Assembly: GCF_000507245.1 (NCBI RefSeq)
Contig: NC_023035.1
Coordinates: 447,001 to 511,000, forward strand
DNA: 64,000 nucleotides
Reading direction: 5' to 3'
Source: Salinispira pacifica
Lineage (GTDB): Bacteria; Spirochaetota; Spirochaetia; DSM-27196; Salinispiraceae
Below, piece by piece: positions 5,086-19,957 of this stretch (its first letter is position 1; every line of letters starts with the position of its first letter). The position numbers and the translations under genes were made by a program. The notes beneath the pieces are model-generated. The model did no database searches. It saw only the letters and a program-made list of their open reading frames with translations, and was not told the DNA's origin.

Positions 5086-5116
5086 GAGGCGGAGGTTCCG
5101 CCCTTGCCTCTTTTTT
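5086..5116 (+). terminator. Probable intrinsic terminator after ptb
   Basis: GGCGG at 5088-5092 pairs with CCGCC at 5098-5102. A longer alternative pairs GAGGC at 5086-5090 with GCCTC at 5106-5110. Six Ts follow at 5111-5116. The site lies about 80 bases after the ptb stop and overlaps the next promoter. Confidence 0.5.
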
Positions 5117-5133
5117 CATATTACCCTTATACT
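5104..5133 (+). promoter_or_regulatory. Putative sigma-70-type promoter of the lipid/beta-branching operon
   Basis: TTGCCT (5104-5109) and TATACT (5128-5133) are separated by 18 bases, matching the -35 and -10 consensus at four and five of six positions. The first gene starts 50 bases downstream. The -35 box overlaps the stem and T run of the preceding terminator, a compact arrangement. Confidence 0.5.
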
Positions 5134-5137
5134 GCAC

Positions 5138-5148
5138 GAACGGCGTTC
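5138..5148. promoter_or_regulatory. GAAC-N3-GTTC dyad at the predicted transcription start
   Basis: GAACGGCGTTC is a perfect interrupted dyad placed five bases after the -10 box, where a repressor would block transcription. The same GAAC-N3-GTTC pattern occurs at 18457-18467 between the second ketosynthase and the phosphopantetheinyl transferase. It resembles, but is one base shorter than, the Gram-positive LexA box spacing. The role as operator is inference. Confidence 0.4.
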
Positions 5149-5182
5149 AGTAATTCCCGCCGAAGTTATGAGGAGACATGGA

Positions 5183-6322
5183 ATGGCCATAGAGGTGCGC
5201 CCCGTTGAGGGGAAAAAGGATTTTAAGAAATTTCTGAACTTCCCGTATAAGGTATACCGGGCGAAGACCGGTGAGCCCGGCGGACACTACGACGCCTGGG
5301 TCCCTCCTCTGGATATGGACATGAAGCACATGTTCGACCGGAAACACAACGGGCTTTTTGATCACGCAGAGCTGCAGGAGTACCTCGCCTACCGGAATGG
5401 AGCCGTTGCCGGAAGGATTGTGGCAATCGTGGATCATGCCTTCTGTGAATATCAGAATACCAAAACCGGCTTTGTGGGATTTTTTGAAGCCTATGATGAT
5501 GTGGATGTGGCCAAAGCATTGTTCAGCACGGCGGAAGACTGGGTGCGCAGCAAGGGAATGGCCCGGGTTATCGGCCCGATTAACGGGTCCACCAATTATC
5601 AGCTGGGCAATCAGATAGACAGTTTCGACACCCTGCCGGTGATCGAGATGCCCTATTCTCCGCCCTATTACGGAAAACTGTATGAAGCCGCGGGCTACGC
5701 AAAAGACCAGGATCTGTATTCCTACAAAATGAAAACCACCCTCAAGCTCAGCGATAAAATCACCAGGGTGGCTGAGCTTGCCCGTAAGCGCAGCAAGGTG
5801 GAAATCAGAACGGTTGAAATGAAGAATTGGGACCGGGATGTGAATTATGTACGGGAAATCTGGGACGATGCCTGGCGGGACAATTGGGGATACGTACCCT
5901 GGAACAAGTCGGAGTTTGATCAACTGGCCGACGGACTGAAAATGGCCATCGACCCCAAGATCACCCTTTTTGCGTATGTTGACGGCAAGCCGGTTGGGTT
6001 TGCATTTCCCATTCCCGATCTGAATCCCGTGTTCCACGGCATGAACGGGAAGCTTCTGCCCTTCGGAATTTTCAAGCTTCTGGCAGGAAAAAAGAAGGCG
6101 GACAGTATCCGCATTGCCGCTTTCGGCGTGCGAAAAGAGTACCAGAATAAAGGAATTGATGCCCTTTTTGTGTATGAACTGTACACCAGAGGAGTAAAGC
6201 AGGGGGTGCGGGGGGCAGAATTCAGCTGGATTCTGGAATCCAATCTCCATCTCCGGAATCTTCTGGAAAACTGGGGTGCGGAGCATTACCGGACCCACCG
6301 GGTATACGGCAAAGAATTGTAA
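5183..6322 (+). CDS. GNAT-family acyltransferase, bacterial ceramide synthase (bCerS/YghO)-like
   Basis: The 379-residue protein has the layout of the YghO/bCerS group of GNAT proteins: an amino-terminal half with WVPPLDMDMK, GRIVAIVDHAF, GFFEAYDDV and GPINGSTNYQLG, and a carboxyl-terminal GNAT fold with FGVRKEYQNKGIDALF near residues 314-329. Proteins of this group N-acylate sphingoid bases in bacteria such as Caulobacter, an acyl-CoA-dependent step. I chose the ATG at 5183, which has GAGGAG seven bases before it, over the ATG at 5168. It is the first gene of an operon that also holds an alpha-oxoamine synthase and carrier protein, which supports N-acylation of a long-chain amine. The exact substrate is unknown, and members of this family without sphingolipid roles exist. 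Confidence 0.6.
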   Translation: MAIEVRPVEGKKDFKKFLNFPYKVYRAKTGEPGGHYDAWVPPLDMDMKHMFDRKHNGLFDHAELQEYLAYRNGAVAGRIVAIVDHAFCEYQNTKTGFVGFFEAYDDVDVAKALFSTAEDWVRSKGMARVIGPINGSTNYQLGNQIDSFDTLPVIEMPYSPPYYGKLYEAAGYAKDQDLYSYKMKTTLKLSDKITRVAELARKRSKVEIRTVEMKNWDRDVNYVREIWDDAWRDNWGYVPWNKSEFDQLADGLKMAIDPKITLFAYVDGKPVGFAFPIPDLNPVFHGMNGKLLPFGIFKLLAGKKKADSIRIAAFGVRKEYQNKGIDALFVYELYTRGVKQGVRGAEFSWILESNLHLRNLLENWGAEHYRTHRVYGKEL

Positions 6323-6343
6323 CAATAGATAATCAATATACAG

Positions 6344-6380
6344 CGGGATCCCCGGGGAAAATCCCCGATCGGGGATCCCG
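6344..6380. other. Strong nested hairpin between the GNAT gene and the acyltransferase gene
   Basis: CGGGATCCCCG (6344-6354) is perfectly complementary to CGGGGATCCCG (6370-6380). The 15-base loop can itself form GGGGAAAATCCCC, and CCCCGATCGGGG (6363-6374) is a second perfect palindrome. There is no T run, so a simple terminator is unlikely. It may protect or partition the polycistronic message. Confidence 0.6.
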
Positions 6381-6408
6381 GAAAAGTTTCAGGTAAGGAT
6401 GGTTTCTC

Positions 6409-7362
6409 ATGAGTACGGTTTTTCTATTCCCCGGCCAGGGAGCTCAGTATCCGGGTATGGCGCGGGATCTATATGAAGGAAGCGATGAAGTTAAAAATCT
6501 TTTTTCCACCGCCTCAGGGGTGCTGAATAAAGATATGGCCGGGCTTCTTTTCGACGGAAGCGAAGAGGACTTGAAGTCCACTGACAACACCCAGGCGGCG
6601 GTGACCCTTGCAAATATTTCCGCTTCGGCGGTTCTCAAGGAAAAGGGCGTTACTCCCGCAGCGGTAATGGGATTTTCCGTAGGTGAGTATGCAGCCCTTC
6701 ATGAAGCTGGAGTGCTGGATACCGAAACCCTGTTCCGCGTGGTTCAGATCCGCGGCGAGGTGATGGAAAAAGGAGCCCGAAAGGCCGACACTGCAGCCGG
6801 CCCCAGCGCAATGAGCGCCGTTCTTGGCCTGCCCTTCGAGGAAGCCCGTGATGTGGTATCTCCCATGGCCGGGCAGGGGGTGTTCATCGCCAACCACAGC
6901 TCTCCCACCCAGATTGTGATTGCAGGAACTTCCCAGGGACTGGATGCCGCAGAGGCCGCGCTGAACGATGCCGGTGCCATGAAGGTTGTACGCCTGAAAG
7001 TCAGCGGCCCGTTTCATTCCCCTCTGCTGGAAGATGCCAGGACAGAATTCGAGGAGCGGATCGGGGAGTTCACCTTTCATGATCCCCGGCTGCCCCTGAT
7101 TTCCAATGTAAGCGCCACGCCAATCGAAAACGGAGAACAGGCCAGGAAACGGGCCGGTGAGCAGATTGTGTCCATGGTTCGATGGGTGGATTCAGAACAA
7201 TATCTGCTGGATAAGGGCTTTATTACCGGCGGGGAGCATGATCTGGTAATTGAAGCGGGGCCGGGAAAAGTGCTTTGTGGACTTTGGAAATCTTTTTACA
7301 AGGGACTGAGGGGAAAACCCGCAGGAACCCTCGAGGCGATAGAGAAAATTCTCCAGGGCTGA
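6409..7362 (+). CDS. Discrete malonyl-CoA:ACP transacylase (FabD/trans-AT type)
   Basis: The 317-residue protein begins with FLFPGQGAQYPGMA and carries the nucleophile motif GFSVGEYAA with Ser90. Arg115 (VVQIRGEVM) and His203 (SGPFHSPLL) complete the usual acyltransferase set. The nucleophile elbow reads GFSVG where malonyl transferases usually have GHSLG, which may affect acyl selection. It loads malonyl groups from CoA onto the acyl carrier protein for the neighbouring ketosynthase. The ATG has a weak AAGGATGGTTTCTC leader, and a strong hairpin lies just upstream. Whether it is the housekeeping FabD or cluster-dedicated cannot be told from this window. Its operon position favours dedication. 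Confidence 0.85.
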   Translation: MSTVFLFPGQGAQYPGMARDLYEGSDEVKNLFSTASGVLNKDMAGLLFDGSEEDLKSTDNTQAAVTLANISASAVLKEKGVTPAAVMGFSVGEYAALHEAGVLDTETLFRVVQIRGEVMEKGARKADTAAGPSAMSAVLGLPFEEARDVVSPMAGQGVFIANHSSPTQIVIAGTSQGLDAAEAALNDAGAMKVVRLKVSGPFHSPLLEDARTEFEERIGEFTFHDPRLPLISNVSATPIENGEQARKRAGEQIVSMVRWVDSEQYLLDKGFITGGEHDLVIEAGPGKVLCGLWKSFYKGLRGKPAGTLEAIEKILQG

Positions 7363-7410
7363 TTTTCGGGGGATGAACCCCCGGGCCCGTCCTTAATGCA
7401 AGGAGCATAT

Positions 7411-8700
7411 ATGAACAAACAGCGCATAGTGATCACCGGGATGGCAACAATTAATCCCCTGGGTGACACCGTTGAAGAGTATTATCAGAACCTTCTGGCC
7501 GGTAAATCCGGTGTGAAGAAATGGGAGTCCCTGGATCTGGCCAAATGTGAGAACAGAGTGGGCGGGGATCTGGGCGATTACGATACCAAGGCGGCTCTGG
7601 AGCGGCTGAAAGAGGGAATCGGCGAGGCGAAGTTCAAGAAGCTTCGCAAACTGTTCCGCTCTGCAACCTTTTCCTCCAAAACCGCAGTGCTCACATCCCA
7701 GAATGCCTGGCTTGATGCCGGACTGGAAGGGGTTGAAATTGACCCCTACATAACCATGGTGGTGGTTGCAGGGCATAACCTGAACTCAAAGTATATCAAC
7801 CGATTGAGCAAACAGTATGAGGAAGAGCCCGAGTACATGGATCCCCTCAGTTCGGTGGAAGCCATCGATAATAACGTTCCCGCCCTCATCTCCGAGGTCC
7901 TTAAAGTTCACGGCCCCAGCTACACGGTGGGTGGAGCCTGTGCAAGCGGCAATCTGGCATTGCGGGATGCAGTACGGGATATCAGATCAGGCGAAGTTGA
8001 ACGGGCGGTTGTGACCGGAGCCCTCTTCGATGTTGCGGAGCCGGACATTCAGGCTTCGGTGATCATCAACTCGGTGGTAATGGACAAGGAGTTGAACGAG
8101 CATCCGGAAACGGCCTGCCGTCCTTTCGATACCCGGCGCAACGGTTTTGTGTACAGCCACGGCTCAGCCGCTTTGGTGGTGGAGAGTCTGGAATCCGCCC
8201 TGGCGCGGGGTGCACACATCCACGCCGAGGTGCTTTCGGTGCGGGCGAACGCCAATGCGAACCACCTTCCCATGCCCGGCGCCCAGCACCAGGCATGGGT
8301 CATGCGGAAGGTACTGGAAGATGCGGGGGTGAAGCCCGGGCAGGTTGAGTACGCGAACTGCCATGCCACGGGTACGCCCGCCGGAGATAAGCAGGAGATA
8401 TACGCACTCAGGGAAGTATTCGGCGATCACCTGAAGGAAATGAAAATCAACGCCCCCAAATCCATGCTGGGCCACACCTGTTGGGCAAGCCCTCTTGTTG
8501 AGACCATCGGAGGAATCATGCAGATGAACAATTCCCGGCTTCATCCCACCATCAACGTGGATGCACAGGATCCGGAAATTGAAGCTGATGTGTGCGCCGA
8601 CGGACCAGTGGATTGGGAAGTAAATTATATGCTGAAAAACTCCTTCGGCTTCGGCGGACTCAACTGCTGCAGCCTCATCAAGAAGTGGGAGGGAGCATGA
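7411..8700 (+). CDS. Beta-ketoacyl-ACP synthase of the beta-branching operon (KS1)
   Basis: This 429-residue thiolase-fold enzyme keeps the condensing triad: Cys177 in GGACASGN, His318 in NCHATGTP and His355 in KSMLGHTCW with Lys350. It is divergent from ordinary FabF, with a long insertion around residues 125-150 and a carboxyl-terminal FGFGGLNCCSLI. In known beta-branching cassettes a companion ketosynthase has Cys replaced by Ser and only decarboxylates malonyl-ACP. Here the Cys is present, so it may condense, or decarboxylate by another arrangement. I chose the ATG at 7411, with AAGGAGCATAT before it, over the ATG at 7396. Its stop overlaps the next start (ATGA). Confidence 0.82.
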   Translation: MNKQRIVITGMATINPLGDTVEEYYQNLLAGKSGVKKWESLDLAKCENRVGGDLGDYDTKAALERLKEGIGEAKFKKLRKLFRSATFSSKTAVLTSQNAWLDAGLEGVEIDPYITMVVVAGHNLNSKYINRLSKQYEEEPEYMDPLSSVEAIDNNVPALISEVLKVHGPSYTVGGACASGNLALRDAVRDIRSGEVERAVVTGALFDVAEPDIQASVIINSVVMDKELNEHPETACRPFDTRRNGFVYSHGSAALVVESLESALARGAHIHAEVLSVRANANANHLPMPGAQHQAWVMRKVLEDAGVKPGQVEYANCHATGTPAGDKQEIYALREVFGDHLKEMKINAPKSMLGHTCWASPLVETIGGIMQMNNSRLHPTINVDAQDPEIEADVCADGPVDWEVNYMLKNSFGFGGLNCCSLIKKWEGA

Positions 8701-9440
8701 GTAACGCCTTTGTAACCGGAGGATCCCGGGGGATCGGCAGAAGCATTGTGCTCCGCTATGTAAGCGAAGGCTGGGGGGTGGCGTTCACCTACTCATCCAA
8801 CAAGGAAGCGGCGGACCGGACCCTGGAAATGGCCCGGGAGATACGCCCGGATGCACGAGTCCAGGCGTATCAGCTCAACCTGTCTGATGAAGATGCCATC
8901 GATAAGGTGTGCGAACAGGCCATAGATGATTTTGAAAACATCACTGCGGTGGTGAACAATGCTGCCATACTCAAAGATAACGCTGCGGCGCTGATGAGCA
9001 ACGAAGAGTGGAAAGATGTGGTGTCGGTGAATCTCACCGCTCCCTTCCTGGTATCCAGAAACTTCCTGCTTCACTTTCTCAGCAACCGCAAGGGAAGACT
9101 GATCCATGTTTCCAGCCTTGCCGCCTACGGATCCAGCGGGCAGGTGAATTACGCCGCATCCAAGGCCGGTCTCCAGGGAATGAGTCTCACGATAGCCAAG
9201 GAGTACGGAAAGAAGGGAATTACATCCAACATTGTGACGGTGGGTTACGTCCCCACAGCCATGACGGAAGAAAACATGAACAAGCAGCTTCAGGAATACT
9301 GGTTAAAACACTGTCCCGCCCGCAGGGTGGGAACCCCCGAAGAGATCGCTTCGGCGGTGTATTATCTCAGTTCAGATGAAGCCTCTTTTATAAGCGGAGA
9401 AGATCTCCGTATATCCGCAGGGCTTACCTACGCCCCCTAG
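8697..9440 (+). CDS. 3-oxoacyl-ACP reductase (FabG-like SDR)
   Basis: The protein has 247 residues. The short-chain dehydrogenase signature is complete: GGSRGIGRS at the amino end binds NAD(P), NNAAILKDN is the NNAG-type motif, and Ser with YAASKAG gives the YxxxK catalytic pair. It should reduce a beta-keto group on the carrier protein, either during chain growth or on a 3-keto sphingoid-like product. The start at 8697 overlaps the ketosynthase stop by four bases with GGAGGGAGC before it, which implies coupled translation. NADPH preference is assumed from the family. Confidence 0.85.
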   Translation: MSNAFVTGGSRGIGRSIVLRYVSEGWGVAFTYSSNKEAADRTLEMAREIRPDARVQAYQLNLSDEDAIDKVCEQAIDDFENITAVVNNAAILKDNAAALMSNEEWKDVVSVNLTAPFLVSRNFLLHFLSNRKGRLIHVSSLAAYGSSGQVNYAASKAGLQGMSLTIAKEYGKKGITSNIVTVGYVPTAMTEENMNKQLQEYWLKHCPARRVGTPEEIASAVYYLSSDEASFISGEDLRISAGLTYAP

Positions 9441-9471
9441 TCGGAAAATTACCCAATCCGGGAGGAATTAT

Positions 9472-10698
9472 ATGAAACGAGTAGGAATTGAAAAACTCAA
9501 CGTGTACGGAACATCAATGTATCTTGACCAGGCCGATCTGGCGAAGGCCCGGGGCAAGGATCCCGAGCAGATCAAAAAAGACTATCTGATCGAAACCAGA
9601 AGTCTGAACCCCACCTGGGAAGATGCGGTAACCATGGCGGCCAATGCGGCCATGACCATGCTCAGCGAAGAAGATAAGAAAGATATCGGTATGCTGATAG
9701 TGGGTACCGAGGGTTCGGTGGATTTCGGAAAGCCAATCTCCACCAACGTCCACTCCGCACTGGGACTGGGGCCCAATGTCCGGAACTATGAGACCAAGTT
9801 CGCATGTTACAGCGGGGTCGCCGCCCTGGATACTGCGGTAAACTGGGTGGCCTCAGGGCTGAACAAGGGGAAAAAGGCGCTGGTTATTGCCTCGGACTTC
9901 TCCCGTCAGCATCTCGGCAAACTTGAGGAGTTTGTCCTCGGAGGATGCGCCGCCGCAGCCCTGGTTTCCGATGATCCGAAAATCATCGAGTACGATCTGG
10001 AAAGGAAGGGAACCTGGACCACCGACATTTACGACACCTTCCGTCCGTCAGCCCTGGCTGAAGTGGGCAATAATGAAGTAAGCCTTTTCTCCTACATGGA
10101 TGCGGTGCAGGGTTCCTATGAGCACTATAAGGAGCAGGTTGAAGGTGATGTGGATTTTGATAATGACTTCTCCTACTTTGTGTACCACACACCCTTCCCC
10201 GGAATTGCATTCCAGGCACACCGGACTCTCACACGAGAGAACGCCCCCAAAAAGAAACCCGAGCTCCGGGCGGACTTTGAAAACCGGGTAATCCCCGCTC
10301 TGGCATACAGCCGCAGGGTGGGTTCAACCTACGGAACATCCAACCTTACCGGGCTGGCCGCACTGGTGAACCATGCCGACGATGCGGAAGGCAAGCATAT
10401 TGCTCTCTTTGCCTACGGTTCCGGCGCCATCGGCGAGTTCTACTCGGGAACCATTCTCCCCGGTGCAAAGGCTGAAATGGCCAAAATGAAAATCGACGAG
10501 CGCCTTGATGAGCGCCGCCGCTGCAGCGTGGAAGAGTATGAGGCCATCGAAAAACTCCGTGAAACCTATGTTGAAAACTCTGATTTTGTGCCGGATTACA
10601 GCATTCTCGACGGCTGGTATGAAAAGCACTACAAGGGAAGCGGTCTGCTGGTGCTGAAAGAAGTGAAAGACTGGTACAGAACCTACGAAAGGGCCTAG
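9472..10698 (+). CDS. HMG-CoA-synthase-like enzyme of a beta-branching (HCS) cassette
   Basis: This 408-residue protein is a 3-hydroxy-3-methylglutaryl synthase homologue. The catalytic residues are visible as Glu80 (GTEGSVDFGKP), Cys112 (FACYSGVAAL) and His239 (YHTPFPGIAFQAH). In polyketide pathways such proteins (PksG, TaC) add acetyl-ACP to the beta-keto group of an acyl-ACP. The two following hydratase-family genes then dehydrate and decarboxylate the product to leave a methyl branch. GGGAGGAATTAT precedes the ATG. A mevalonate-pathway MvaS is the alternative, but no other mevalonate gene is nearby and the adjoining ECH1/ECH2 pair is diagnostic of HCS cassettes. Confidence 0.85.
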   Translation: MKRVGIEKLNVYGTSMYLDQADLAKARGKDPEQIKKDYLIETRSLNPTWEDAVTMAANAAMTMLSEEDKKDIGMLIVGTEGSVDFGKPISTNVHSALGLGPNVRNYETKFACYSGVAALDTAVNWVASGLNKGKKALVIASDFSRQHLGKLEEFVLGGCAAAALVSDDPKIIEYDLERKGTWTTDIYDTFRPSALAEVGNNEVSLFSYMDAVQGSYEHYKEQVEGDVDFDNDFSYFVYHTPFPGIAFQAHRTLTRENAPKKKPELRADFENRVIPALAYSRRVGSTYGTSNLTGLAALVNHADDAEGKHIALFAYGSGAIGEFYSGTILPGAKAEMAKMKIDERLDERRRCSVEEYEAIEKLRETYVENSDFVPDYSILDGWYEKHYKGSGLLVLKEVKDWYRTYERA

Positions 10699-10707
10699 GC
10701 GGTTTCC

Positions 10708-11592
10708 ATGAGTACGAATGGCGGTGATGCGGTTTCAGCCCGGGAGGAATCCCAGGCCTCTGCAGTAACATATTCAAACGACTCGGGCCTGGGCATTATT
10801 CACATATCCGACGGACGGGGAAACCGGCTCAATCCTTCAAGTCTGGAAGAGCTTTCCCGGGCATTTCAGGAAGGTCTGGCAGACGAGGATGCAAAACTGC
10901 TGATGATCCGCTCAGGGGAACGGAGTTTCTGTCTGGGAATGGATCTGGAAGGTCTTGAATCCAGTCTTGATGATGACGGTTCCGGAGGAAATTCCGGCGG
11001 CGATCATCGAAGCGGCGGAGTGAAACGCTACTCCAGCCTCCTGTACAGTATTGCCGGCTGCGCAAAGCCGGTAATCGCCCTTGTTGAAGGGGATGTGAAA
11101 GCCGGCGGGGTGGGCCTTGCGGCCGCATGCGACATTGTGATTGCCCGGGAGGACGCCAGCTTTGAACTCTCGGAAGTGCTCTTCGGCCTCGTACCCTATA
11201 ATGTGCTGCCCTATGTGTTTTCCCTGAGAATGAGCCCCCAGCGCTTCCGTTATATGGTGCTCAGCGCAGCCCGGGTGGATGCCCGGGAAGCCCGAGACTT
11301 CGGCCTGGTGGACAGGGTGTTTTCCGAAGACGCCCTGGAAAAGGGGTTGAAAAGCATGTTGAAAACCATGATGCGGGCCGAGCCCCGGGCTCTGGCTGCC
11401 GCAAAGACCTTCTTCACCCGTGCCCTGGACCAGGATTTCGATACCTTGCGGGGTAATGCCGAACAGGCGCTGCTGAAACACATGGCCCAGCCCCAGGTGA
11501 AGGAAGGGCTGGAAGCGTTTCATTCAGGAGATATGCCGGAGTGGTTTTCCAGATTCAAACCCGGAAAAAAGCTTTCCGGCCAAAACGGTTGA
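10708..11592 (+). CDS. Enoyl-CoA hydratase-family dehydratase ECH1 (PksH-like)
   Basis: This 294-residue crotonase-fold protein matches the ECH1 type of beta-branching cassettes. The segment PVIALVEGDVKAGGVGLAAACDIVIA, with SFELSEVLFGLVPYNVLPY after it, closely follows the PksH pattern. ECH1 enzymes dehydrate the HMG-ACP-type intermediate to a 3-methylglutaconyl-ACP. An unusual glycine- and serine-rich stretch near residues 85-105 (DDDGSGGNSGGDHRSGG) interrupts the loop after GMDLEGL, which I take as a surface insertion. It begins nine bases after the synthase stop with only a weak binding site (GGCGGTTTCC), suggesting coupling to the upstream gene. Confidence 0.82.
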   Translation: MSTNGGDAVSAREESQASAVTYSNDSGLGIIHISDGRGNRLNPSSLEELSRAFQEGLADEDAKLLMIRSGERSFCLGMDLEGLESSLDDDGSGGNSGGDHRSGGVKRYSSLLYSIAGCAKPVIALVEGDVKAGGVGLAAACDIVIAREDASFELSEVLFGLVPYNVLPYVFSLRMSPQRFRYMVLSAARVDAREARDFGLVDRVFSEDALEKGLKSMLKTMMRAEPRALAAAKTFFTRALDQDFDTLRGNAEQALLKHMAQPQVKEGLEAFHSGDMPEWFSRFKPGKKLSGQNG

Positions 11593-11622: not shown

Positions 11623-12450
11623 ATGTCAGAAGAAAAATTACACCCCAAGCAGGTTGAACCTTCCCGGCACGGGGAGGATGCGGATCCCGCATCTCTTTTT
11701 GAACAGTACGGGAGAGTTTCGTTTTCCCTGGATGAAAAGGAAATAGCCACCATCTTCATGCATGATATGGAGGGACAAAATGTATTCTCCCATGCGTTTG
11801 TTGAGGACTTTCTCAGCGTACTGGATGCGGTTGAAGAGATTGATCCCCGGGTTGTTATTCTCAGAGGACTTACAAGCACTTTCTCCGGTGGGGCCGATAA
11901 GGAATCTCTCATGGAGCTGGCCAGCGGAAAAATTGTAGTCCGGGATCTCGTAATCTCCGAAAGACTTATCAACTGCCGCTTCCCGGTTATCTCCGCAATG
12001 GAAGGACATGCCATGGGCGGGGGATTTGTAATAGCCCTCTGCTCGGATATTATCATTGCCTCCCGGGAGGCCAGGTACGGCACGGTCTTTATGAATATGG
12101 GGTTTACGCCGGGAATGGGAACCACCACCCTTCTGCAGGGTGCCGTGGGAAGCTATATTGCCAACGAAATGATGTTCACCGGCAGGCGATACAAGGGCCG
12201 TGAACTGGCGGAAAAGTCCACAAATATCAACTACATTCTCCCGAAAAAAGAGGTTCTGGCAAAGGCCGCAGATCTTGCCCTGCAGATTGCGGAGAAGAAT
12301 CCCAAGTCTGTACAGCTGTTGAAGTACAGTCTTGCCGCACCCAAGAAAAAACTTCTCACCGATGCCCGGCTGCAGGAGGATATGATGCATGCCCTCAGCT
12401 TCGGGTATCCGGAGACGAAAAAAATTATTGATGATCTCTACGCAGGATGA
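11623..12450 (+). CDS. Enoyl-CoA hydratase-family decarboxylase ECH2 (PksI-like)
   Basis: The 275-residue protein is a crotonase-fold enzyme of the ECH2 type. AMEGHAMGGGFVIALCSD supplies the oxyanion-hole region and FMNMGFTPGMGTTTLL matches the PksI/CurF signature. ECH2 decarboxylates 3-methylglutaconyl-ACP to a 3-methylcrotonyl-type product, completing the methyl branch. It lies 30 bases after ECH1, in the order synthase, ECH1, ECH2 that is standard for HCS cassettes. A GACGAGGAACAT leader precedes the ATG. The first 25 residues are charged and look disordered. Regiochemistry of the remaining double bond (alpha-beta or beta-gamma) cannot be inferred. Confidence 0.83.
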   Translation: MSEEKLHPKQVEPSRHGEDADPASLFEQYGRVSFSLDEKEIATIFMHDMEGQNVFSHAFVEDFLSVLDAVEEIDPRVVILRGLTSTFSGGADKESLMELASGKIVVRDLVISERLINCRFPVISAMEGHAMGGGFVIALCSDIIIASREARYGTVFMNMGFTPGMGTTTLLQGAVGSYIANEMMFTGRRYKGRELAEKSTNINYILPKKEVLAKAADLALQIAEKNPKSVQLLKYSLAAPKKKLLTDARLQEDMMHALSFGYPETKKIIDDLYAG

Positions 12451-12497: not shown

Positions 12498-13319
12498 ATG
12501 ATCAGCATTGATATGACAGGAAAAACCGTACTGATTACCGGCGGTACCAAAGGAATCGGCCTGGCCTCGGCACTGAATTTTGCCCAGGCGGGAGCTCAGA
12601 CTGTACTCACCTATAAGTGGGGAAGTGCGGACATGGATGAACTGAAAAAACAGTTTTCCGATCTTGGTGCACCCGAGCCCCTGCTTGTGCAGGCGGATGT
12701 TTCGGTGGATGAAGATACCGATGCCCTTCTCGACGAAGTGGCTAAGATATCCAAATCGGTTGATATCTTTATCAGCAATGTGGGATATGCTGCGACAATG
12801 CGAAATCTCGATGCGTATAAGAAGAGATCGCTCTATAAGACTCTGGACTATTCAACCTGGCCTATGGTTGAATATACCCGGAAAATACAGAAAAAATTCG
12901 GTTCCTACCCTGAAAAGGTGATCGGGATCAGCAGCGACGGTCCGGATCATTTTTATCCGGGATACGATTATGTGGCAGCGAGTAAGGCATTGCTTGAATT
13001 TTTCGGAAAGTACATGGCCGCCCATCTCTACAAAGAGGGCAGCCGGGTGAATGTTATCCGCTTCGGGCAGGTAAAAACCGAGAGCTTTACCGCCATTTTC
13101 GGCGAAGAGTTTTTCGATTACCTTCGCGATCAGGGACTGGCCAGCGAAGAGCAGATCCTGACCCCCGAGGAATGCGGAAAAGCAGTGTTCGCTCTTTGCA
13201 GCGGATTAATGGATGGAATGAACGGACAGGTTGTAAATGTTGACTACGGCCTGCCATTCACAGATAATACGATGATGCGTTTCCTTTCATGGAAAGAGAA
13301 ACAGGATCAATCATCTTAA
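12498..13319 (+). CDS. FabL-like enoyl-ACP reductase (SDR with Y-x6-K)
   Basis: The 273-residue protein starts with the cofactor motif GGTKGIGLASA. It lacks the classical YxxxK of ketoreductases. Instead Tyr156 and Lys163 in GYDYVAASKALLEFFGKY stand in the Y-x6-K spacing of enoyl-ACP reductases, and the segment aligns well with Bacillus FabL. It would saturate the enoyl product, either in ordinary chain extension or after the beta-branch decarboxylation, as seen in some HCS pathways. GGAAAAGGAAGGAAACAGCT precedes the ATG. A 3-ketosphinganine-type reductase is an alternative that the Y-x6-K spacing argues against. Confidence 0.72.
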   Translation: MISIDMTGKTVLITGGTKGIGLASALNFAQAGAQTVLTYKWGSADMDELKKQFSDLGAPEPLLVQADVSVDEDTDALLDEVAKISKSVDIFISNVGYAATMRNLDAYKKRSLYKTLDYSTWPMVEYTRKIQKKFGSYPEKVIGISSDGPDHFYPGYDYVAASKALLEFFGKYMAAHLYKEGSRVNVIRFGQVKTESFTAIFGEEFFDYLRDQGLASEEQILTPEECGKAVFALCSGLMDGMNGQVVNVDYGLPFTDNTMMRFLSWKEKQDQSS

Positions 13320-13332: not shown

Positions 13333-13578
13333 ATGACTAAACCTGAAGTCATCGAAGTCATCAAAAAGAATATCGTGGATAATCTTGATGATATTGAACT
13401 GGATGAGATCGACGCATCCAAATCCATGAAGGATTATGGTGCAAACAGCCTGGATATTATCGAGGTTGTGAGCTGTTCCATGCGGGACCTTGATATCAAG
13501 ATTCCCCGTTCCGAACTTGCTGACATCGGAGATATTGACGGTCTTGCGGACAAATTTCTGGAGCATGTCGAAGAATAA
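13333..13578 (+). CDS. Acyl carrier protein
   Basis: This 81-residue acidic protein carries the phosphopantetheine site in YGANSLDIIEVV with Ser39. The GANS form, and the later IPRSEL, resemble carrier proteins of beta-branching cassettes (AcpK type) more than housekeeping AcpP, which usually has GADSLD. It is the only carrier protein in the cluster, so it may act both as chain carrier and as acetyl donor. It might also be partner of the alpha-oxoamine synthase, as ACPs beside serine palmitoyltransferase are elsewhere. AAGAGGAGAGACATC gives a strong start, 13 bases after the reductase. Confidence 0.92.
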   Translation: MTKPEVIEVIKKNIVDNLDDIELDEIDASKSMKDYGANSLDIIEVVSCSMRDLDIKIPRSELADIGDIDGLADKFLEHVEE

Positions 13579-13667: not shown

Positions 13668-13704
13668 ACCGGCGGCTAAGAAATTTAATATACAGGAAAA
13701 ACTT

Positions 13705-14958
13705 ATGGCGAAAGCAACAGATTTCAGCCTCGCTGATTTTCATTATACCAATAATCCCGATGTCCTCTCTCCTCCCGAAGATTTTGAAGAATGGATTAAC
13801 GATCCGGAAGTACAACAGGCATTCAGCTTCACCGGCCAGAGCCTGCTCATGGCACCCAAAGCCAACACGGAAATTCTGAGCAATCTTGACGGCAAACGCC
13901 GGAAGATTATTAACATGACCAGCTACAATTATCTGGGGCTTTCAACACACCCGGAAGTACTGGCTGCAGCGAAAGAGGCGGCGGATAAATACGGCCTCAG
14001 TTCCTCAGGAGCCCCCCTGGTTTCCGGAACCCTGGATCTGCACCTGGAATTTGCTGAAAAACTGGCAAAACTGAAACATAAAGAAGCAGCCCTGATCTTC
14101 AGCTCCGGATACGGCGGAAATGTGGGTGCCCTGCAGGGAATGATGCGGAAGGGCGATGTACTGATTTTTGATGAGAAGATTCATAAATCCCTCATCGACG
14201 GCGGGACTCTTTCCCATGCCAAAATGGAATTCTTTGACCACAACGACATGAACAGTCTTGAGCAGAAGCTTGAAAAACATAAAGACAAGCGGAAGCTCAT
14301 CGTTGCAGAAGGCGTCTACTCCATGGATGGCGATATGGCCAAACTTCCGGAAATGGTGCCCCTTTCCGAGGCCTACAATGCGCCTATCTATCTGGATGAA
14401 GCCCATTCAACCCTGATGTTCGGCGAAAAGGGCGGCGGAGTGGGTGAACACTTCGGTCTTGAAGACAAAATCGGCATGTCCTACGGTACCTTGAGCAAGA
14501 GCTTCGGCGGTGTGGGTGGCTTCATTGCGTCCAACGAGCGGATTATCCGCTATCTGAAAGGCTATGCTTCCAGCTGGAACTTTTCCTGTGCCCCCAGTCC
14601 TCCGGTGATTGCCGGGCTGATCAAGGCACTGGAAGTTGCAACCCGGGATTCCACTCTTCGGGATCAGCTCTGGGCAAACACCCGTTATCTGAAAGAAAAT
14701 ATTCAGGCACTTGGGCTGGATATCGGTGACTGTGAAAGTCAGGTAATACCGGTGATCATCGGTCAGAGCGGTGAAAAACTCTTCCATTTCGCCGGTGAAA
14801 TGCAGAAACGGGGACTCTTTCTCCAACCCATCGACTATCCTGCGGTTCCCGCACATGCCCGCCGTTTCAGAATCTCTGTATCCTCCCAGTTCACCAGGGA
14901 AGACATGGATACTGCGCTGAATATTATGGAAGATGTAATTGTGAAAGGGATGAAATAA
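13705..14958 (+). CDS. Alpha-oxoamine synthase (serine palmitoyltransferase family)
   Basis: This 417-residue PLP enzyme belongs to the family of serine palmitoyltransferase, KBL, BioF and ALAS. Lys265 in YGTLSKSFGGVGGF is the PLP lysine, Asp231 and His234 lie in DEAHS, and His160 stacks on the cofactor. It joins an acyl thioester to an amino acid with loss of CO2, giving an amino ketone. The His160 region reads DEKIHKSLIDG instead of the usual HAS, a possible mark of a different substrate. With a carrier protein just upstream and a bCerS-like protein in the operon, a sphingolipid-like product is likely. The amino acid (serine, cysteate, alanine or glycine) is not readable. Confidence 0.85.
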   Translation: MAKATDFSLADFHYTNNPDVLSPPEDFEEWINDPEVQQAFSFTGQSLLMAPKANTEILSNLDGKRRKIINMTSYNYLGLSTHPEVLAAAKEAADKYGLSSSGAPLVSGTLDLHLEFAEKLAKLKHKEAALIFSSGYGGNVGALQGMMRKGDVLIFDEKIHKSLIDGGTLSHAKMEFFDHNDMNSLEQKLEKHKDKRKLIVAEGVYSMDGDMAKLPEMVPLSEAYNAPIYLDEAHSTLMFGEKGGGVGEHFGLEDKIGMSYGTLSKSFGGVGGFIASNERIIRYLKGYASSWNFSCAPSPPVIAGLIKALEVATRDSTLRDQLWANTRYLKENIQALGLDIGDCESQVIPVIIGQSGEKLFHFAGEMQKRGLFLQPIDYPAVPAHARRFRISVSSQFTREDMDTALNIMEDVIVKGMK

Positions 14959-14960
14959 GC

Positions 14961-15488
14961 GTGAGCGAACAGGAAACCCTGCTGAAAAAGCACAGGAAAA
15001 AGCCTCTGTTCGATATAGCCTCCCTGCCCGTGAGCCTGAGTTACGGCAGGGAGGATATCAAGAAAATCATCCCCCACAGAGAGCCCATGCTCTTTGTGGA
15101 CCGACTTCTGGGGCTTGACCGGGAGCAGGGGCTGATGTACGGCCAGCGCTACATGGATCCTGACGATCCGGTGTTTCAGGGGCATTTTCCCGATGCTCCC
15201 ATGTATCCGGGGAATTTCACCATTGAAATGATCGGTCAGCTGGGTTTGTGCATGTATTATTTTGAAGAACAGGGGCGCAGCGATATTGCCGAACAGGCAA
15301 CTCCGGTACCCGCACGGGCCACCCGCATTGCCGGAGCCCATTACCTGAAACCCGTGGAACCCGGTAAAACCGTAACCCTGCTGGCAAAAAAGCTTGAGTA
15401 CGACGGCTTTTTTGCATCCATGATCGGCCAGGCTCTGGTGGATGGTGAAGTTGCGGTAACGGTGATCGGGGAAGTGGTTATTCTGTAG
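14961..15488 (+). CDS. FabZ/FabA-like 3-hydroxyacyl-ACP dehydratase
   Basis: The 175-residue hot-dog-fold protein has IPHREPMLFVDRLL near residue 37, His75 in GHFPDAPMYPGNF and Glu89 in TIEMIGQ, the catalytic pair of FabZ. It would dehydrate 3-hydroxyacyl-ACP, completing a full reductive cycle with the ketosynthase, ketoreductase and enoyl reductase of the same operon. It starts with GTG two bases after the oxoamine synthase stop. An extra ~25-residue amino-terminal stretch precedes the usual FabZ start. It is the last gene of the operon, and the next genes face it. Confidence 0.85.
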   Translation: MSEQETLLKKHRKKPLFDIASLPVSLSYGREDIKKIIPHREPMLFVDRLLGLDREQGLMYGQRYMDPDDPVFQGHFPDAPMYPGNFTIEMIGQLGLCMYYFEEQGRSDIAEQATPVPARATRIAGAHYLKPVEPGKTVTLLAKKLEYDGFFASMIGQALVDGEVAVTVIGEVVIL

Positions 15489-16306: not shown

Positions 16307-16356
16307 TAATTCAGATACCTCCCGGGGTTGATCACCTGTGCGGATCTGACCCTGCT

Positions 16357-17127
16357 TCAACTCCGTATCTTTGCCGGGGGGTGCGGTTTTTCTGATGGCT
16401 TCTTTGGTGCCTTCTCTGGTTTTTCGGCTGCGTCTTTTGCTGCGGGCTGAAAGACATGCAGATTCATATAGATCCACAGGGGCATGGAGGCGGTCATATA
16501 TAAGGCTGTAAGCCCCAATGACGCATTGCCCTGAATAAAGGCGGAATTCAGTGAAGACAGGCCTGCCAGCAGCGCAGCTGCGGAGATCAGAGCACCCGTA
16601 AGGGGGATGATTGCGGTGATGAGGCCGATTATCAGCAAGGCGGATTTGCCGGTCGGTCCTGCGGTCGGGGATGGAGCGTACAGTGCCCCAAGGGATACAA
16701 GAAGCAGGGCGAACAGCCCGGTGTTGAGAACCAGTACGCCGGCACCATCGATCCCGTTCACCGCAACCAGTGCAAAGAGGGCCGGGACTGCAGCCGCAAG
16801 CACCGGCGGCAACCTCCGGGCTGATGAGACAGCTGCAGACCTGAAACCCAGGGAAAGGATCCCGAACGCAGACAGAGTCAAAGTGTGCAGGGCGGTAATC
16901 ACAAGCCGGGAGATTCCCGCCTCCGTTCCGTGAAGAAAACCGAAAACGAAAAAATACAGGAAGGCGGCCGCCGAAGCCGAAAGGGCGCCGATCCCCGACA
17001 TGATTCCCGCTTTACGTCTTCCCTGAAATCCCGGAGATAGATGCAGGGCTCCCGAGAGAAGCCCTGATATCCCTGCTGCGAGAAACAGAGGAGGTAATGC
17101 ATCCGGTTGAATTCCGGTAAATATCAT
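16357..17127 (-). CDS. Multi-pass membrane protein (putative sensor partner)
   Basis: I do not recognise this 256-residue protein. It shows about seven hydrophobic segments (for example PPLFLAAGISGLLSGALHL, ASAAAFLYFFVFGFLHG, LVITALHTLTLSAFGILSLGF and AALYMTASMPLWIYMNLHVF-like regions) and a lysine/proline-rich cytoplasmic tail. Seven spans followed by a kinase gene recall 7TM-sensor kinases split into two polypeptides. It lies 33 bases after the second ketosynthase on the same strand, so it is probably cotranscribed with it. A frameshift that separates one sensor kinase into two is also possible. Confidence 0.6.
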   Translation of the reverse strand: MIFTGIQPDALPPLFLAAGISGLLSGALHLSPGFQGRRKAGIMSGIGALSASAAAFLYFFVFGFLHGTEAGISRLVITALHTLTLSAFGILSLGFRSAAVSSARRLPPVLAAAVPALFALVAVNGIDGAGVLVLNTGLFALLLVSLGALYAPSPTAGPTGKSALLIIGLITAIIPLTGALISAAALLAGLSSLNSAFIQGNASLGLTALYMTASMPLWIYMNLHVFQPAAKDAAEKPEKAPKKPSEKPHPPAKIRS

Positions 17128-17160: not shown

Positions 17161-18408
17161 TTATGAATAGCGGCTGAATACCACGCAGGCGTTCTGTCCG
17201 CCGAACCCGAAGGCGTTGGACAGAAAATGGTCTGCCTTTTTCTCCATTGGCTCTTTTATCACATTATAGTTTATTTCGTCGTCAAGTTCGAATTGATTGA
17301 TGGTGTGGTGGATTACTCCCTGCTCGAAGGATAAAATACCAGCAACCGCTTCTACGGCACTGGCTGCCCCGATGAGGTGGCCGGTCATGCTTTTGGTGCT
17401 GTTGACGGGGATGCTCGAGGCAAGGTCCGCTCCCATGGCACGGTTCACCGCCTGGCATTCGGCCTTGTCCCCGATGGGGGTGGAAGTTCCATGACAGTTG
17501 ATGAAATCAAGCTGCTCGTAGTTCAGCTCCGCCATCTCCACCGCGAGTTCGATGGCCTTGGATGCGCCGATTCCGTCGGGGTGGGGCGCAACCAGATCGT
17601 AGGCGTCGGAGGTGAAGCCGAAGCCGCTGATTTCCGCATAGATATGAGCGCCGCGTTTTTTCGCATGTTCAAGTTCTTCCAGAAACAGAACTCCTGCACC
17701 CTCGCCCATTACAAATCCGTCCCGGCTTTTGTCGAAGGGCCGTGAGGCAGTTTCCGGATCATCATTCCTGGAGGAGAGTGCTCCGATCTGACCGAACCCC
17801 GCCATTGAGGGCTCTGTAGCCACCGCTTCGGTTCCGCCGGTTACCATTGCATCCACCATACCTGTGGCAATCATATTGTATGCCGTTCCCAGTGCATGAT
17901 TGGAACTGGCGCAGGCCGAGTTTACCGAAAAGCTGGGACCGGTGAAGCCGAATTCCATGCTGATCATGGCGCTGGTGGAATTGGGAATTACCGAAGATAC
18001 ATAGAACGGGCTGACTGAGGATAAGCCGCTTTTGGCCATCCGGTTGATCTGCTGATACTGGGTGATAAGTCCCCCGTCACCTGTGCCAACCAGAACCCCC
18101 ACCCGATGGGGTTCCTGATAATTATCCATTCCGGCATCTTTAATCGCCTGGTAACCTGCTATATGACCGAGAATAATATGCCTGTCCAGTCGGCGGGCCA
18201 TTTTCCTCTGGGTAAAATAATCCCTCACATCAGGCAGATCGATTTCCGCCGCAATCTGAACATGGAAATCGCTCAGATCCATATTTTGAGCCTTTCGGGC
18301 TCCGCTTTTACCCTTTACCAGATTCTCCCAGAACTGGGAAACATTGAAACCTATGGGATTCACCGTACCGAGACCGGTAATAACCACTCTACGTTGTTTT
18401 GCTGCCAC
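17161..18408 (-). CDS. Beta-ketoacyl-ACP synthase, FabF type (KS2)
   Basis: The 415-residue protein is a regular FabF-type condensing enzyme. Cys166 (NSACASSN), His306 (NCHGTSTP) and His344 (TKSMTGHLIGAAS) with Lys339 form the triad, and FGFGGQNACVVF closes the chain. It elongates acyl-ACP with malonyl-ACP. I chose the GTG at 18408 with GGGAGG five bases upstream, over an ATG seven codons earlier that would lie before that site. It heads a minus-strand group with a membrane protein and a kinase-like gene and is divergent from the phosphopantetheinyl transferase. It probably supplies elongation for the same acyl line as KS1. Confidence 0.87.
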   Translation of the reverse strand: MAAKQRRVVITGLGTVNPIGFNVSQFWENLVKGKSGARKAQNMDLSDFHVQIAAEIDLPDVRDYFTQRKMARRLDRHIILGHIAGYQAIKDAGMDNYQEPHRVGVLVGTGDGGLITQYQQINRMAKSGLSSVSPFYVSSVIPNSTSAMISMEFGFTGPSFSVNSACASSNHALGTAYNMIATGMVDAMVTGGTEAVATEPSMAGFGQIGALSSRNDDPETASRPFDKSRDGFVMGEGAGVLFLEELEHAKKRGAHIYAEISGFGFTSDAYDLVAPHPDGIGASKAIELAVEMAELNYEQLDFINCHGTSTPIGDKAECQAVNRAMGADLASSIPVNSTKSMTGHLIGAASAVEAVAGILSFEQGVIHHTINQFELDDEINYNVIKEPMEKKADHFLSNAFGFGGQNACVVFSRYS

Positions 18409-18456
18409 ACATCCTCCCTGGGGATCCATTATACTTTGTTACATCCATCGATCCCG

Positions 18457-18467
18457 GAACACTGTTC
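18457..18467. promoter_or_regulatory. GAAC-N3-GTTC dyad in the divergent KS2/PPTase region
   Basis: GAACACTGTTC is a perfect interrupted dyad, flanked symmetrically at a distance by TGTTACA (18438-18444) and its complement TGTAACA (18477-18483). It repeats the pattern at 5138-5148. A minus-strand TATAAT (18433 down to 18428) may be the -10 of the ketosynthase gene, without a good -35. Operator function is inference. Confidence 0.4.
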
Positions 18468-18502
18468 AAAAATGCTTGTAACAGATTACTATACATGCAC
18501 AG

Positions 18503-19189
18503 ATGTTTCAAAGACCAATTGCACAGCTCCTTGTCTATTATTTTCACCGCTACAAAGCATACGCTTCAGACCCTGGCGTCCAGGGGGAACAGACCCCCGG
18601 CAGAATTTGTCTTCGTCTGGCGTTGAACAATGCCTTTTCCCGTTTGGCTCTGCCCCCCCTGGATAATTCCGATACATTTGTCACTGCAGAAGGCGGAAAA
18701 CCGTATCTGCTGCGTTCAGGAGAGGATAAGTTCTTCGGGTTTAACATGAGTGTTTCCGGAGATCACCTGGCCGTGGGGGTAACTGATTACGGCTCCATCG
18801 GTGTGGATATTGAGGCGCGATCAATACCGAGGAAAAAGACCAGTCTTGAAGCCGTAATGATCTACTACTTTCAGGATGATGAGAGATTGTTTGTGCTGGA
18901 TGCTTCGCAAGACGAAGAGGAATTTCTCTGGAGATTTCTCCGGATCTGGACAAGGAAGGAAGCGGCGGTAAAATGTCAGGGAAAAAGCATCGGCAGTCAC
19001 GGGATGCTGGTGAACGGAATGGAGGACTATTGGATCGATGAGGAATCGGGCACATCGGTGGCGATACAGGATGTGTCTTTTCCCGGCGCCCCCCGCCTTC
19101 AGGCCTCTGTGGCTCTGCAATCAGGGGCTCTGCAATCAGGGGGATCACCCCGTCCGATGATTATCGACGGGGATGATCTGAGGCTGTGA
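18503..19189 (+). CDS. 4'-phosphopantetheinyl transferase (Sfp/AcpT type)
   Basis: The 228-residue protein shows the Sfp-family pattern: FNMSVSGDHLAVGV, then GSIGVDIEA, which binds magnesium and CoA, and FLRIWTRKEAAVKCQGKSI about 55 residues later. It transfers the phosphopantetheine arm of CoA to the serine of carrier proteins, so it can activate the cluster's ACP. It is divergent from KS2 across a 94-base region with a shared dyad. Its 3' end contains an in-frame 15-base tandem duplication giving ALQSG twice. The ATG has no strong binding site. A housekeeping AcpS would be shorter, so this looks like a pathway enzyme. Confidence 0.85.
   Translation: MFQRPIAQLLVYYFHRYKAYASDPGVQGEQTPGRICLRLALNNAFSRLALPPLDNSDTFVTAEGGKPYLLRSGEDKFFGFNMSVSGDHLAVGVTDYGSIGVDIEARSIPRKKTSLEAVMIYYFQDDERLFVLDASQDEEEFLWRFLRIWTRKEAAVKCQGKSIGSHGMLVNGMEDYWIDEESGTSVAIQDVSFPGAPRLQASVALQSGALQSGGSPRPMIIDGDDLRL
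19111..19140 (+). repeat. Two-copy 15-bp tandem duplication inside the PPTase gene
   Basis: GGCTCTGCAATCAGG occurs twice in perfect tandem at 19111-19125 and 19126-19140. It is in frame and encodes ALQSG-ALQSG near the carboxyl end, outside the conserved core. It looks like a recent slippage event. Confidence 0.8.
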
Positions 19190-19201
19190 TTCCTGAAAAA
19201 A

Positions 19202-19957
19202 TCAGGCGATGTCCGTGGGAACCTCGGCATTCTTTGCAGCCTGCTGAAGTTTTTTGGAATTCTTCAGGATGCGGAACATCCATCGGTTGATGCGCTGCAT
19301 GAATTTCGGGAGTCCTTTTTCCCGGAGTACGTCGATGAATAGAACCACACGTCGCTCATCGGTTTTATTCCACACCTCGTGGCGGTACGTGTCGTCAAAA
19401 AGGACATCTTCGCCTTCTTTCCAGCTGTACTTTTCTCCGTTCACCAGGATGTAGCATTCCCCCTGGGGGATCATCAATCCCAGATGATAACGGAGCACAG
19501 ACTTGAAGAATCCGTAATGGGGCGGGATGTGCTTGCCACCGTCAATGATGCTGAACATTGCCATGGACACTCTTGGCAGCTGTTGAATGAGCTCCGTGGT
19601 CTTGGGGACCTGTTCGCAGTTGTGGGGCAGCCATTCGTTAAACCCCTTAATAATAAAGGTCCGCCATGCCTTGTCGTCCTTGGCGGAGATAAACTTCTGC
19701 AGCTTATCCACCTCATGGAATTTGGGGATGTTTTCAATGTTCTTCAACACTTCATCCAATTCGGCCCGAATGGTGGTCCAGTTTTCTTTTAACAGCTTGC
19801 TTTCCGGAAATTCCTCCTGAATATTTACGTATGGGGGATTCTTCACAAAGAGTGAGAGAATCCAGGAATAAAGCAAGGCGATAATAAACGGTTCAATAAA
19901 ATAGATCAGAACCAGAAGTAAAACTATAGATGCTAATACTATGAGAGCTGTAAGCAT
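19202..19957 (-). CDS. Aspartyl/asparaginyl beta-hydroxylase-fold enzyme (LpxO-like)
   Basis: This 251-residue protein has a membrane anchor at residues 1-38 and then an Fe(II)/2-oxoglutarate oxygenase domain. HIPPHYGFFKSVLRYHLGL and WKEGEDVLFDDTYRHEVWNKT carry the two iron histidines and the family's RVVLF motif follows. LpxO of this family 2-hydroxylates an acyl chain of lipid A at the membrane, and AspH hydroxylates protein. The membrane anchor favours a lipid. Next to a possible sphingolipid cluster, it could 2-hydroxylate the N-acyl chain, which is inference. I chose the ATG at 19957 with AAAGGAGG seven bases before it. The reaction needs oxygen, which is notable beside anaerobic pathways. 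Confidence 0.75.
   Translation of the reverse strand: MLTALIVLASIVLLLVLIYFIEPFIIALLYSWILSLFVKNPPYVNIQEEFPESKLLKENWTTIRAELDEVLKNIENIPKFHEVDKLQKFISAKDDKAWRTFIIKGFNEWLPHNCEQVPKTTELIQQLPRVSMAMFSIIDGGKHIPPHYGFFKSVLRYHLGLMIPQGECYILVNGEKYSWKEGEDVLFDDTYRHEVWNKTDERRVVLFIDVLREKGLPKFMQRINRWMFRILKNSKKLQQAAKNAEVPTDIA

Follow-up and report, generated by a model that had tools for sequence, protein, structure and literature searches.

The described bacterial systems closest to the locus reported here include two groups. Beta-branching cassettes as described in PMC10006238 and PMC4768178 serve modular polyketide synthases (PKSs), among them trans-acyltransferase and some cis-acyltransferase PKSs such as those for PksX, curacin and virginiamycin, and share with the locus a 3-hydroxy-3-methylglutaryl (HMG) synthase (HMGS, or HCS in cassettes), the crotonases ECH1 and ECH2, a related ketosynthase (KS) and an AcpK-like acyl carrier protein (ACP). 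The bacterial ceramide pathway (Spt, bCerS/YghO, CerR, AcpR and AasR in Caulobacter, Sphingomonas and E. coli BL21) shares with it the adjacency of an alpha-oxoamine synthase (AOS) and an ACP gene, as well as an acyltransferase of the GNAT family. These components occur together in the halophilic spirochaete Salinispira pacifica L21-RPul-D2 (genome of 3,782,798 bp, CP006939.1; PMC4511686), in a 64,000-nucleotide stretch of contig NC_023035.1 (positions 447,001 to 511,000) that we call the window. A run of eleven genes at 5168-15488, all on the plus strand and spaced by -4 to 126 bp, encodes in order a GNAT N-acyltransferase, a malonyl-ACP transferase (MAT), a ketosynthase (KS1), a ketoreductase (KR), HMGS, ECH1, ECH2, an enoyl reductase (ER; SDR2), an ACP, an AOS and a dehydratase (DH); a second ketosynthase (KS2), a phosphopantetheinyl transferase (PPTase) and an LpxO/OlsC-like hydroxylase lie downstream (Table 1). 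From the sequence, we consider it probable (about 0.68) that this cluster is a dedicated type II, fully discrete beta-methylating acyl-ACP synthase that feeds the AOS.

Annotation with Pfam and NCBIfam models, scored against the model cut-offs, located every gene named in the original prediction at its place, both in the eleven-gene run and beside it. The claim that the enzymes are exclusively discrete also held. Genome-wide, no modular PKS turned up, the five PF00109 matches all lying in single frames of 425-451 aa. The original prediction further knew of no described system joining these components with discrete enzymes only, and no discrete HCS and oxoamine synthase system appeared in the titles and abstract openings of the open PMC papers listed, a scope outside which subscription papers and MIBiG lie. 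The open literature contains PKS-derived sphingolipids (PMC12134224) and HCS cassettes in modular PKSs. The SgaAB system of Pseudomonas fluorescens MYb115 likewise has a dedicated polyketide-type synthase feeding an AOS, but SgaA is described as one iterative type I PKS, unlike the discrete enzymes found here, and the term beta-branch is absent from the text of that paper (PMC12134224). A paper on latrunculid-sponge spirochaetes refers to the sole terpene cluster of S. pacifica, and the word polyketide is absent from its main text (PMC11656744). In contrast to the PKS cassettes, the Salinispira run has no modular PKS, a KS with a Cys and an HMGS with Ser in place of Asn, contains its own ER, KR and DH and ends in an AOS. 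In contrast to the ceramide pathway, its AOS lies outside the tested clade of serine palmitoyltransferase (SPT), its chain is apparently built de novo on the ACP and no acyl-ACP synthetase is found among the eleven genes.

The identity of the HCS cassette was assessed by structural matches, trees and approximately unbiased (AU) tests; all trees were quick ones with SH-aLRT as the sole support measure (48 rows for HMGS, 41 for ECH, 38 for AOS, 32 for KS and 31 for GNAT). The best matches of HMGS in the Protein Data Bank (PDB) were CurD (264 bits) and PksG (238 bits), with MvaS at no more than 212 bits, and HMGS aligned with CurD and PksG through their C-terminal region, whereas the MvaS alignment stopped near residue 363. 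In the HMGS tree, 17 cluster HMGSs, 12 HCSs from plasmid records and three mid-distance spirochaete HMGSs fell on one side with a support of 98; outside it were the MvaS rows and the genome's second HMGS. The 12 plasmid matches, taken as the PKS group, include a discrete Serratia locus and two unannotated records (L047, L148), and eight of the MvaS-like HMGS loci from a search of 61 genomes were used, along with the genome's own second copy. Holding the cluster HMGSs together with six MvaS-type rows was rejected (p-AU 0.0035). The residues E80, C112 and H239 are kept in all 48 rows. ECH2 matched PksI (142 bits) and CurF (133 bits) in the PDB, the next match reaching 78 bits, scored 254 bits against PRK07110 'polyketide synthase' (cut-off 215) and grouped with the PKS ECH2 proteins with a support of 99. 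ECH1 grouped with the PKS ECH1 proteins with a support of 100. Joining with PaaF and PaaG, the only generic crotonases in the ECH trees and tests, was rejected for both ECH2 (p-AU 0.009) and ECH1 (p-AU 0.011). The catalytic Lys of ECH2 was tried as a marker and dropped, as the PKS ECH2 rows are not conserved there either. The grouping of all three proteins with PKS cassettes, rather than with MvaS or PaaF/PaaG, bears out the HCS cassette claimed in the original prediction and supports HMGS-ECH1-ECH2 as a true beta-branching cassette. Other HMGS types were also seen: the second Salinispira HMGS at 3187 kb (L044) forms its own spirochaete clade far from the MvaS reference rows, and in one family (f19; L013, L076-L078) the HMGS is MvaS-like and falls on the same side of the tree as those of Enterococcus and Streptomyces.

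The conserved neighbourhood proposed as a check was found for nine core genes. The core KS1-KR-HMGS-ECH1-ECH2-ER-ACP-AOS-DH is present in this order in eight other spirochaete loci (L035, L036, L038, L041, L079, L083, L085 and L086, the last with two extra open reading frames (ORFs) between ECH1 and ECH2), and since these nine genes keep the same order in eight other genomes, the arrangement is not due to chance. KR adjoins KS1 and HMGS in all eight, and ACP, AOS and DH adjoin one another in every locus where all three could be read. Contig ends truncate other cluster loci, and the cluster genes of one genome are spread over three contigs (L087, L205, L157). KS2 genes also lie near cluster genes in L035, L041, L079, L083, L084, L085, L205 and L207, and PPTases were also seen in L035, L041, L085 and L160. 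Among 392 spirochaete genomes, the cluster-type HMGS (at least 59% identity) was detected in 12, which span six families, and the cluster-type AOS (at least 64% identity) in 13; the two occurred together in 11 genomes (Fisher p 1e-18, kinship ignored). HMGS was found without AOS in G182 (73% complete), and AOS without HMGS in G080 (81% complete) and G092 (76% complete). The GNAT (E 1e-20 or better) was present in 99 genomes, namely in 12 of 12 HMGS genomes versus 87 of 380 others (Fisher p 4e-8, kinship ignored). A separate search of 61 genomes gave six more carriers (G003, G011, G032, G037, G055 and G060), and a single-protein scan of named organisms gave one locus, in Spirochaetes bacterium UWPOB_SPIRO2 (L045), which appears to be genome G070.

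Discrete homologs of MAT, ACP (53%), DH, KS1 (with the Cys), KR, HMGS, ECH1, ECH2 and SDR2 were also found on plasmid pSF001 of Serratia fonticola GS2 (CP013914), at about 124.8-130.3 kb (L144) and 0.3-5.8 kb (L166); no other plasmid record gave an SDR2 match at E 1e-30. The HMGS, KR, KS1 and ECH1 matches each occur there in two places, and the frames are broken, by poor assembly or decay. The Serratia KS groups with KS1 (support 96), but its branch is long and drew a warning from the program. The 21.5 kb read gave no match to AOS or GNAT. These discrete homologs suggest that the discrete system may extend beyond its spirochaete lipid version.

The best NCBIfam model of KS1 was PRK07103 'polyketide beta-ketoacyl:ACP synthase' (323 bits, below the cut-off of 445), and its closest solved relatives are FabF. 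All 13 KS1 rows retain the residues Cys, His, Lys and His, whereas none of eight PKS-cassette KSs has the Cys (seven Ser, one Met). The canonical cassette KS is defined as condensation-inactive (PMC10006238); as KS1 keeps its Cys, it can in principle condense. KS1 may or may not descend directly from a cassette KS: a tree joining it with the PKS-cassette KSs gave a p-AU of 0.039, with the Serratia KS outside the constrained group. The residue after the GH motif, an acyl-pocket position in KS structures, is Trp in 13 of 13 KS1 rows and Gly in FabF and KS2, with one Trp and one Tyr among the eight cassette KSs; the Trp hints at a small acyl pocket in KS1 and at short acyl groups. In 13 of 13 rows, the window's among them, SDR2 shows the Y-x6-K motif of E. 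coli FabI, which presumably marks the FabI type, and the solved structures that it matches best are FabI enoyl reductases; we assigned it as the ER on these two grounds. The ACP has GANSLD or GADSLD at its site in all 14 cluster-genome rows, window included, and is by model closest to the PKS-cassette ACPs (PRK07117, below cut-off), a model linked to the pks cluster of B. subtilis. In DH, the GHFP motif and the E are conserved in all 12 rows. FabH- and FabF-type genes also occur elsewhere in the genome, which suggests that ordinary membrane fatty acids are made by them, and a private synthase would then be most sensible for a special chain.

At the amino-lipid end of the run, the best PDB match of AOS was the SPT of S. 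multivorum (273 bits), and AOS keeps the catalytic Lys in GT[LFM]SKS and the His that stacks on pyridoxal phosphate (PLP). The neighbouring ACP, AOS and DH genes resemble the acpR-spt pair reported for Rhodobacteria (PMC9386255). By tblastn, the GNAT shares 33% identity with E. coli YghO over 99% of its length, 31% with a Sphingomonas GNAT from a stretch that includes ACP and AOS genes, and 33% with a Streptomyces GNAT that neighbours an AOS and an epimerase. In the GNAT tree, which has no outgroup, the in-cluster GNATs of four loci (window included) formed one clade (support 98), and three reference GNATs fell on their own side (support 89). The full-length homology corroborates the predicted membership of the GNAT in the bCerS/YghO family. 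The E. coli gene yghO (ECD_02850) is listed as homologous to Caulobacter CC_1154, which encodes an acyltransferase required for dihydroceramide (PMC9386255). In BL21 the gene order is yghO, fatty acyl-AMP ligase, epimerase, ACP, spt, whereas the yghO locus of a laboratory K-12 strain lacks spt. No ceramide reductase was found near the Salinispira cluster, the best match in its own genome being weak (E 4e-13, 23% identity). Among the stretches read, a CerR-like epimerase occurred near PPTase or KS2 only in G002, where an extended short-chain dehydrogenase/reductase (SDR) beside the PPTase is 36% identical to the Streptomyces epimerase, and in G055, where a weaker extended SDR (27% to that of G002) shares a stretch with PPTase and KS2 matches. 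Salinispira has a second YghO/bCerS-family GNAT at about 763.9-765.0 kb (L159 6910-8033), split over two overlapping frames and probably decayed. In G084, which also has an HCS-AOS cluster, another locus (L158) holds a GNAT (66-1160) and an SPT-clade AOS (4186-5211) about 3 kb apart, so that two amino-lipid systems may coexist in one genome.

In the proposed pathway, MAT would load malonyl onto the ACP and KS1 would decarboxylate malonyl-ACP to acetyl-ACP and, as it keeps its Cys, would also condense it to acetoacetyl-ACP. HMGS would then add an acetyl unit at the beta-ketone, ECH1 would dehydrate and ECH2 decarboxylate the adduct, and the FabI-like ER would saturate the product and leave a beta-methyl branch. 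KS2, KR, DH and ER would extend the chain, AOS would condense the acyl-ACP with an amino acid, and the GNAT would N-acylate the resulting branched 3-keto amino-lipid. Each reaction and the product are what we infer from the gene set, and the amino acid and the branch position are putative likewise. At somewhat under even odds, we tentatively favour a single branch at C4, with isovaleryl-ACP giving an iso-branched long-chain base without leucine, because of the hint from the KS1 pocket and because CurD, the closest solved HMGS, acts on acetoacetyl-ACP.

Several findings weigh against the reading of the cluster as a beta-methylating synthase that feeds the AOS, or against branching at C4. At position 285, HMGS carries Ser in all 17 cluster rows; 11 of 12 PKS-group rows and 19 of 19 other rows have Asn at this site, and in S. 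aureus HMGS that Asn presumably contacts the substrate. The sole PKS-group exception is the discrete Serratia copy, with Ala. Gly81 is found in 16 of 17 cluster rows, and Phe247, near the catalytic His, in 15 of 17, whereas all 12 PKS-group rows have Lys or Arg there. These changes are the strongest warning that the acceptor or the chemistry may differ, and they speak against branching at C4. The top NCBIfam model of HMGS was TIGR01835, which covers prokaryotic HMG-CoA synthases in general (270 bits, below the cut-off of 360), and in pairwise comparison ECH1 matched PksH with only 68 bits, in twelfth place, several generic hydratases being closer. The run has a single AcpK-like ACP, whereas canonical cassettes are described as using separate ACPs for donor and acceptor (PMC10006238); here the run's own ACP or a housekeeping ACP could serve as acceptor. 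AOS forms its own clade (support 100) outside the tested SPT clade. Joining it with the five SPT-clade rows was rejected (p-AU 0.0045), and joining was not rejected when the nearest relatives, sister rows L180 and L181, were included (p-AU 0.065). The GNAT lies beside the core in three of the eight other complete loci, L038 being uninformative as it ends at KS1, and is found in 87 genomes that lack the cluster. Finally, iso-C15:0 is implied in S. africana too (PMC4511686); the S. pacifica genome has two FabH above cut-off and a VorB-like ferredoxin oxidoreductase at 154-2252 of the window, and its iso-C15:0 may come from branched CoAs instead.

Possible but doubtful is a version of the same synthase in which the cassette acts, once or repeatedly, on longer 3-ketoacyl-ACPs to give a mid-chain or multi-methyl amino-lipid. 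The conserved G81, S285 and F247 would suit another kind of acceptor, perhaps a larger or a more hydrophobic one, enzymes for full reduction (KR, DH and ER) are within the run, and canonical cassettes are described as acting on polyketide chains (PMC10006238). The KS1 Trp, read as pointing to short acyl groups, and the acetoacetyl-ACP substrate of CurD, the best structural match, argue the other way. We regard as quite unlikely the extreme case of an iterative cassette alternating with KR/DH/ER rounds, which would place several beta-methyls on an isoprenoid-like chain made from malonyl units and, through the AOS, yield a new amino-lipid class.

Unlikely, too, is that the AOS product is a signal or secondary metabolite of the alpha-amino ketone or pyrrole type, the GNAT acylating something else. 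Such a product would suit an AOS outside the tested SPT clade with GAP or GSP where all five SPT-clade rows have the GSR loop, and a GNAT that lies far off or on other contigs in most cluster genomes (in G067 it shares a contig with KS1). It would be harder to reconcile with the presence of the GNAT in all 12 cluster genomes, with its adjacency in four loci (the window's among them) and the single clade that these adjacent GNATs form, and with the major unidentified aminolipid reported for S. pacifica (PMC4511686), of which the cluster is possibly the source. The description of the locus as sphingolipid-like is a loose one, as the AOS forms a separate clade and its union with the SPT rows was rejected in one of the two tests. 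In a study of the Black Sea, members of a broader 'Spt-like' clade are treated as candidate sphingolipid producers (PMC11334938). The site of SPT Asn52 was discarded as a predictor of serine use: the cluster rows have Tyr there, but so does the Sphingomonas AOS row, and no inference on serine can be drawn.

Co-location alone, with the cassette supplying isovaleryl-ACP for iso-C15:0 and AOS and GNAT making an independent straight-chain lipid, seems improbable. S. pacifica is rich in iso-C15:0 (11.7%) and also contains anteiso-C15:0, iso-C13:0 and C16:0 2OH, and it is described as using neither amino acids nor peptides (PMC4511686). Myxococcus xanthus is reported to make isovaleryl-CoA through MvaS, a route that, if branching here occurs at the starter, shares with the cluster an HMGS, a dehydration, a decarboxylation and a reduction to a C5 iso unit; that route is CoA-linked and uses MvaS and LiuC, whereas the cassette-type HCS, ECH1 and ECH2 would presumably act on an ACP (PMC9636800). 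One locus (L089, in G133, 3742-7700) has KR-HMGS-ECH1-ECH2-ACP with no KS1 or AOS match nearby. Against mere co-location stand the joint occurrence of HMGS and AOS in 11 genomes, with three misses that are all incomplete genomes, and the position of AOS inside the core, between ACP and DH. A mevalonate or catabolic HMGS with crotonases from fatty acid oxidation is scarcely credible: MvaS and HCS are homologous and the top HMGS model is a general one, but the trees and AU tests reject this at the sequence level, with the MvaS rows and with PaaF/PaaG as the sole generic crotonases, and the second HMGS of the genome belongs to a different clade.

If the cluster is a beta-methylating acyl-ACP synthase feeding the AOS, beta-branching chemistry can work in a fatty-acid-type synthase, and spirochaetes could gain a leucine-independent route to branched long-chain bases. 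The locus supplies genes that can be tested as the source of the unidentified Salinispira aminolipid in a cultivable strain, DSM 27196, which is assigned to biosafety level 1 (PMC4511686), and the Cys-bearing KS1 and the Ser-for-Asn HMGS provide reference points for the evolution of condensation-inactive cassette KSs and of acceptor choice.

Table 1. Genes of the Salinispira pacifica cluster and its flank, with positions in the window.
Feature	Position	Strand	Evidence
GNAT N-acyltransferase, bCerS/YghO family; putative amino-ketone N-acylation	5168..6322	+	tblastn, YghO homology
Malonyl-ACP transferase (MAT)	6409..7362	+	PF00698; fabD TIGR00128 245 bits, below cut-off 261
KS1 ketosynthase, catalytic Cys 182 (GGACASGN)	7396..8700	+	NCBIfam PRK07103
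FabG-like ketoreductase (KR)	8697..9440	+	Top model TIGR01830, below cut-off
HMG-ACP synthase (HCS, HMGS), E80/C112/H239, Ser 285	9472..10698	+	PDB CurD; tree
ECH1, putative cassette dehydratase	10708..11592	+	Tree, with PKS ECH1
ECH2, putative cassette decarboxylase	11623..12450	+	PRK07110 above cut-off; PDB PksI; tree
FabI/FabL-like enoyl reductase (SDR2)	12498..13319	+	Y-x6-K; PDB FabI-type ERs
Acyl carrier protein (ACP)	13333..13578	+	Top model PRK07117, below cut-off
Alpha-oxoamine synthase (AOS, PLP)	13705..14958	+	PDB S. multivorum SPT; own clade
FabZ-like dehydratase (DH)	14961..15488	+	PF07977
KS2, FabF-like elongation ketosynthase	17161..18429	-	TIGR03150 above cut-off
4'-phosphopantetheinyl transferase, AcpT-like (PPTase)	18503..19189	+	PF01648
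LpxO/OlsC-like 2-hydroxylase, system membership doubtful	19202..19996	-	OlsC 158 bits, LpxO 140 bits, both below cut-off

Within the run, the ATG of KR overlaps the KS1 stop by 4 bases, and the mechanical ORF start at 8592 was judged too early. Promoter-like hexamers at 5104-5133, where the region of the original prediction begins, were not better than those of shuffled sequences (nine sites in the region versus a shuffle mean of 12.3). Two minus-strand ORFs between DH and KS2 had no Pfam match and no relative by BLAST among the fetched loci; one of them (15584-16477) gave weak NCBIfam histidine-kinase matches of at most 24 bits. Just upstream of the run, on the same strand at 154-5009, lie genes for VorB-like 2-oxoacid ferredoxin oxidoreductase subunits, butyrate kinase and phosphate butyryltransferase. 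Partial relatives of the cassette were also seen: the HMGS of L089 is about 42% identical to the Salinispira cluster HMGS and keeps the Asn, and L088 and L090 hold KR-HMGS pairs alone.

Neither the VorB, butyrate kinase and phosphate butyryltransferase genes nor the LpxO-like gene had a match in 22 other fetched stretches, many of them incomplete, and both were set aside as parts of the system. The hydroxylase named in the original prediction is present beside the cluster and looks accessory. Enzymes of the LpxO/OlsC type, we assume, need oxygen. S. pacifica, which carries such a gene, is described as a fermentative, aerotolerant anaerobe containing C16:0 2OH (PMC4511686).

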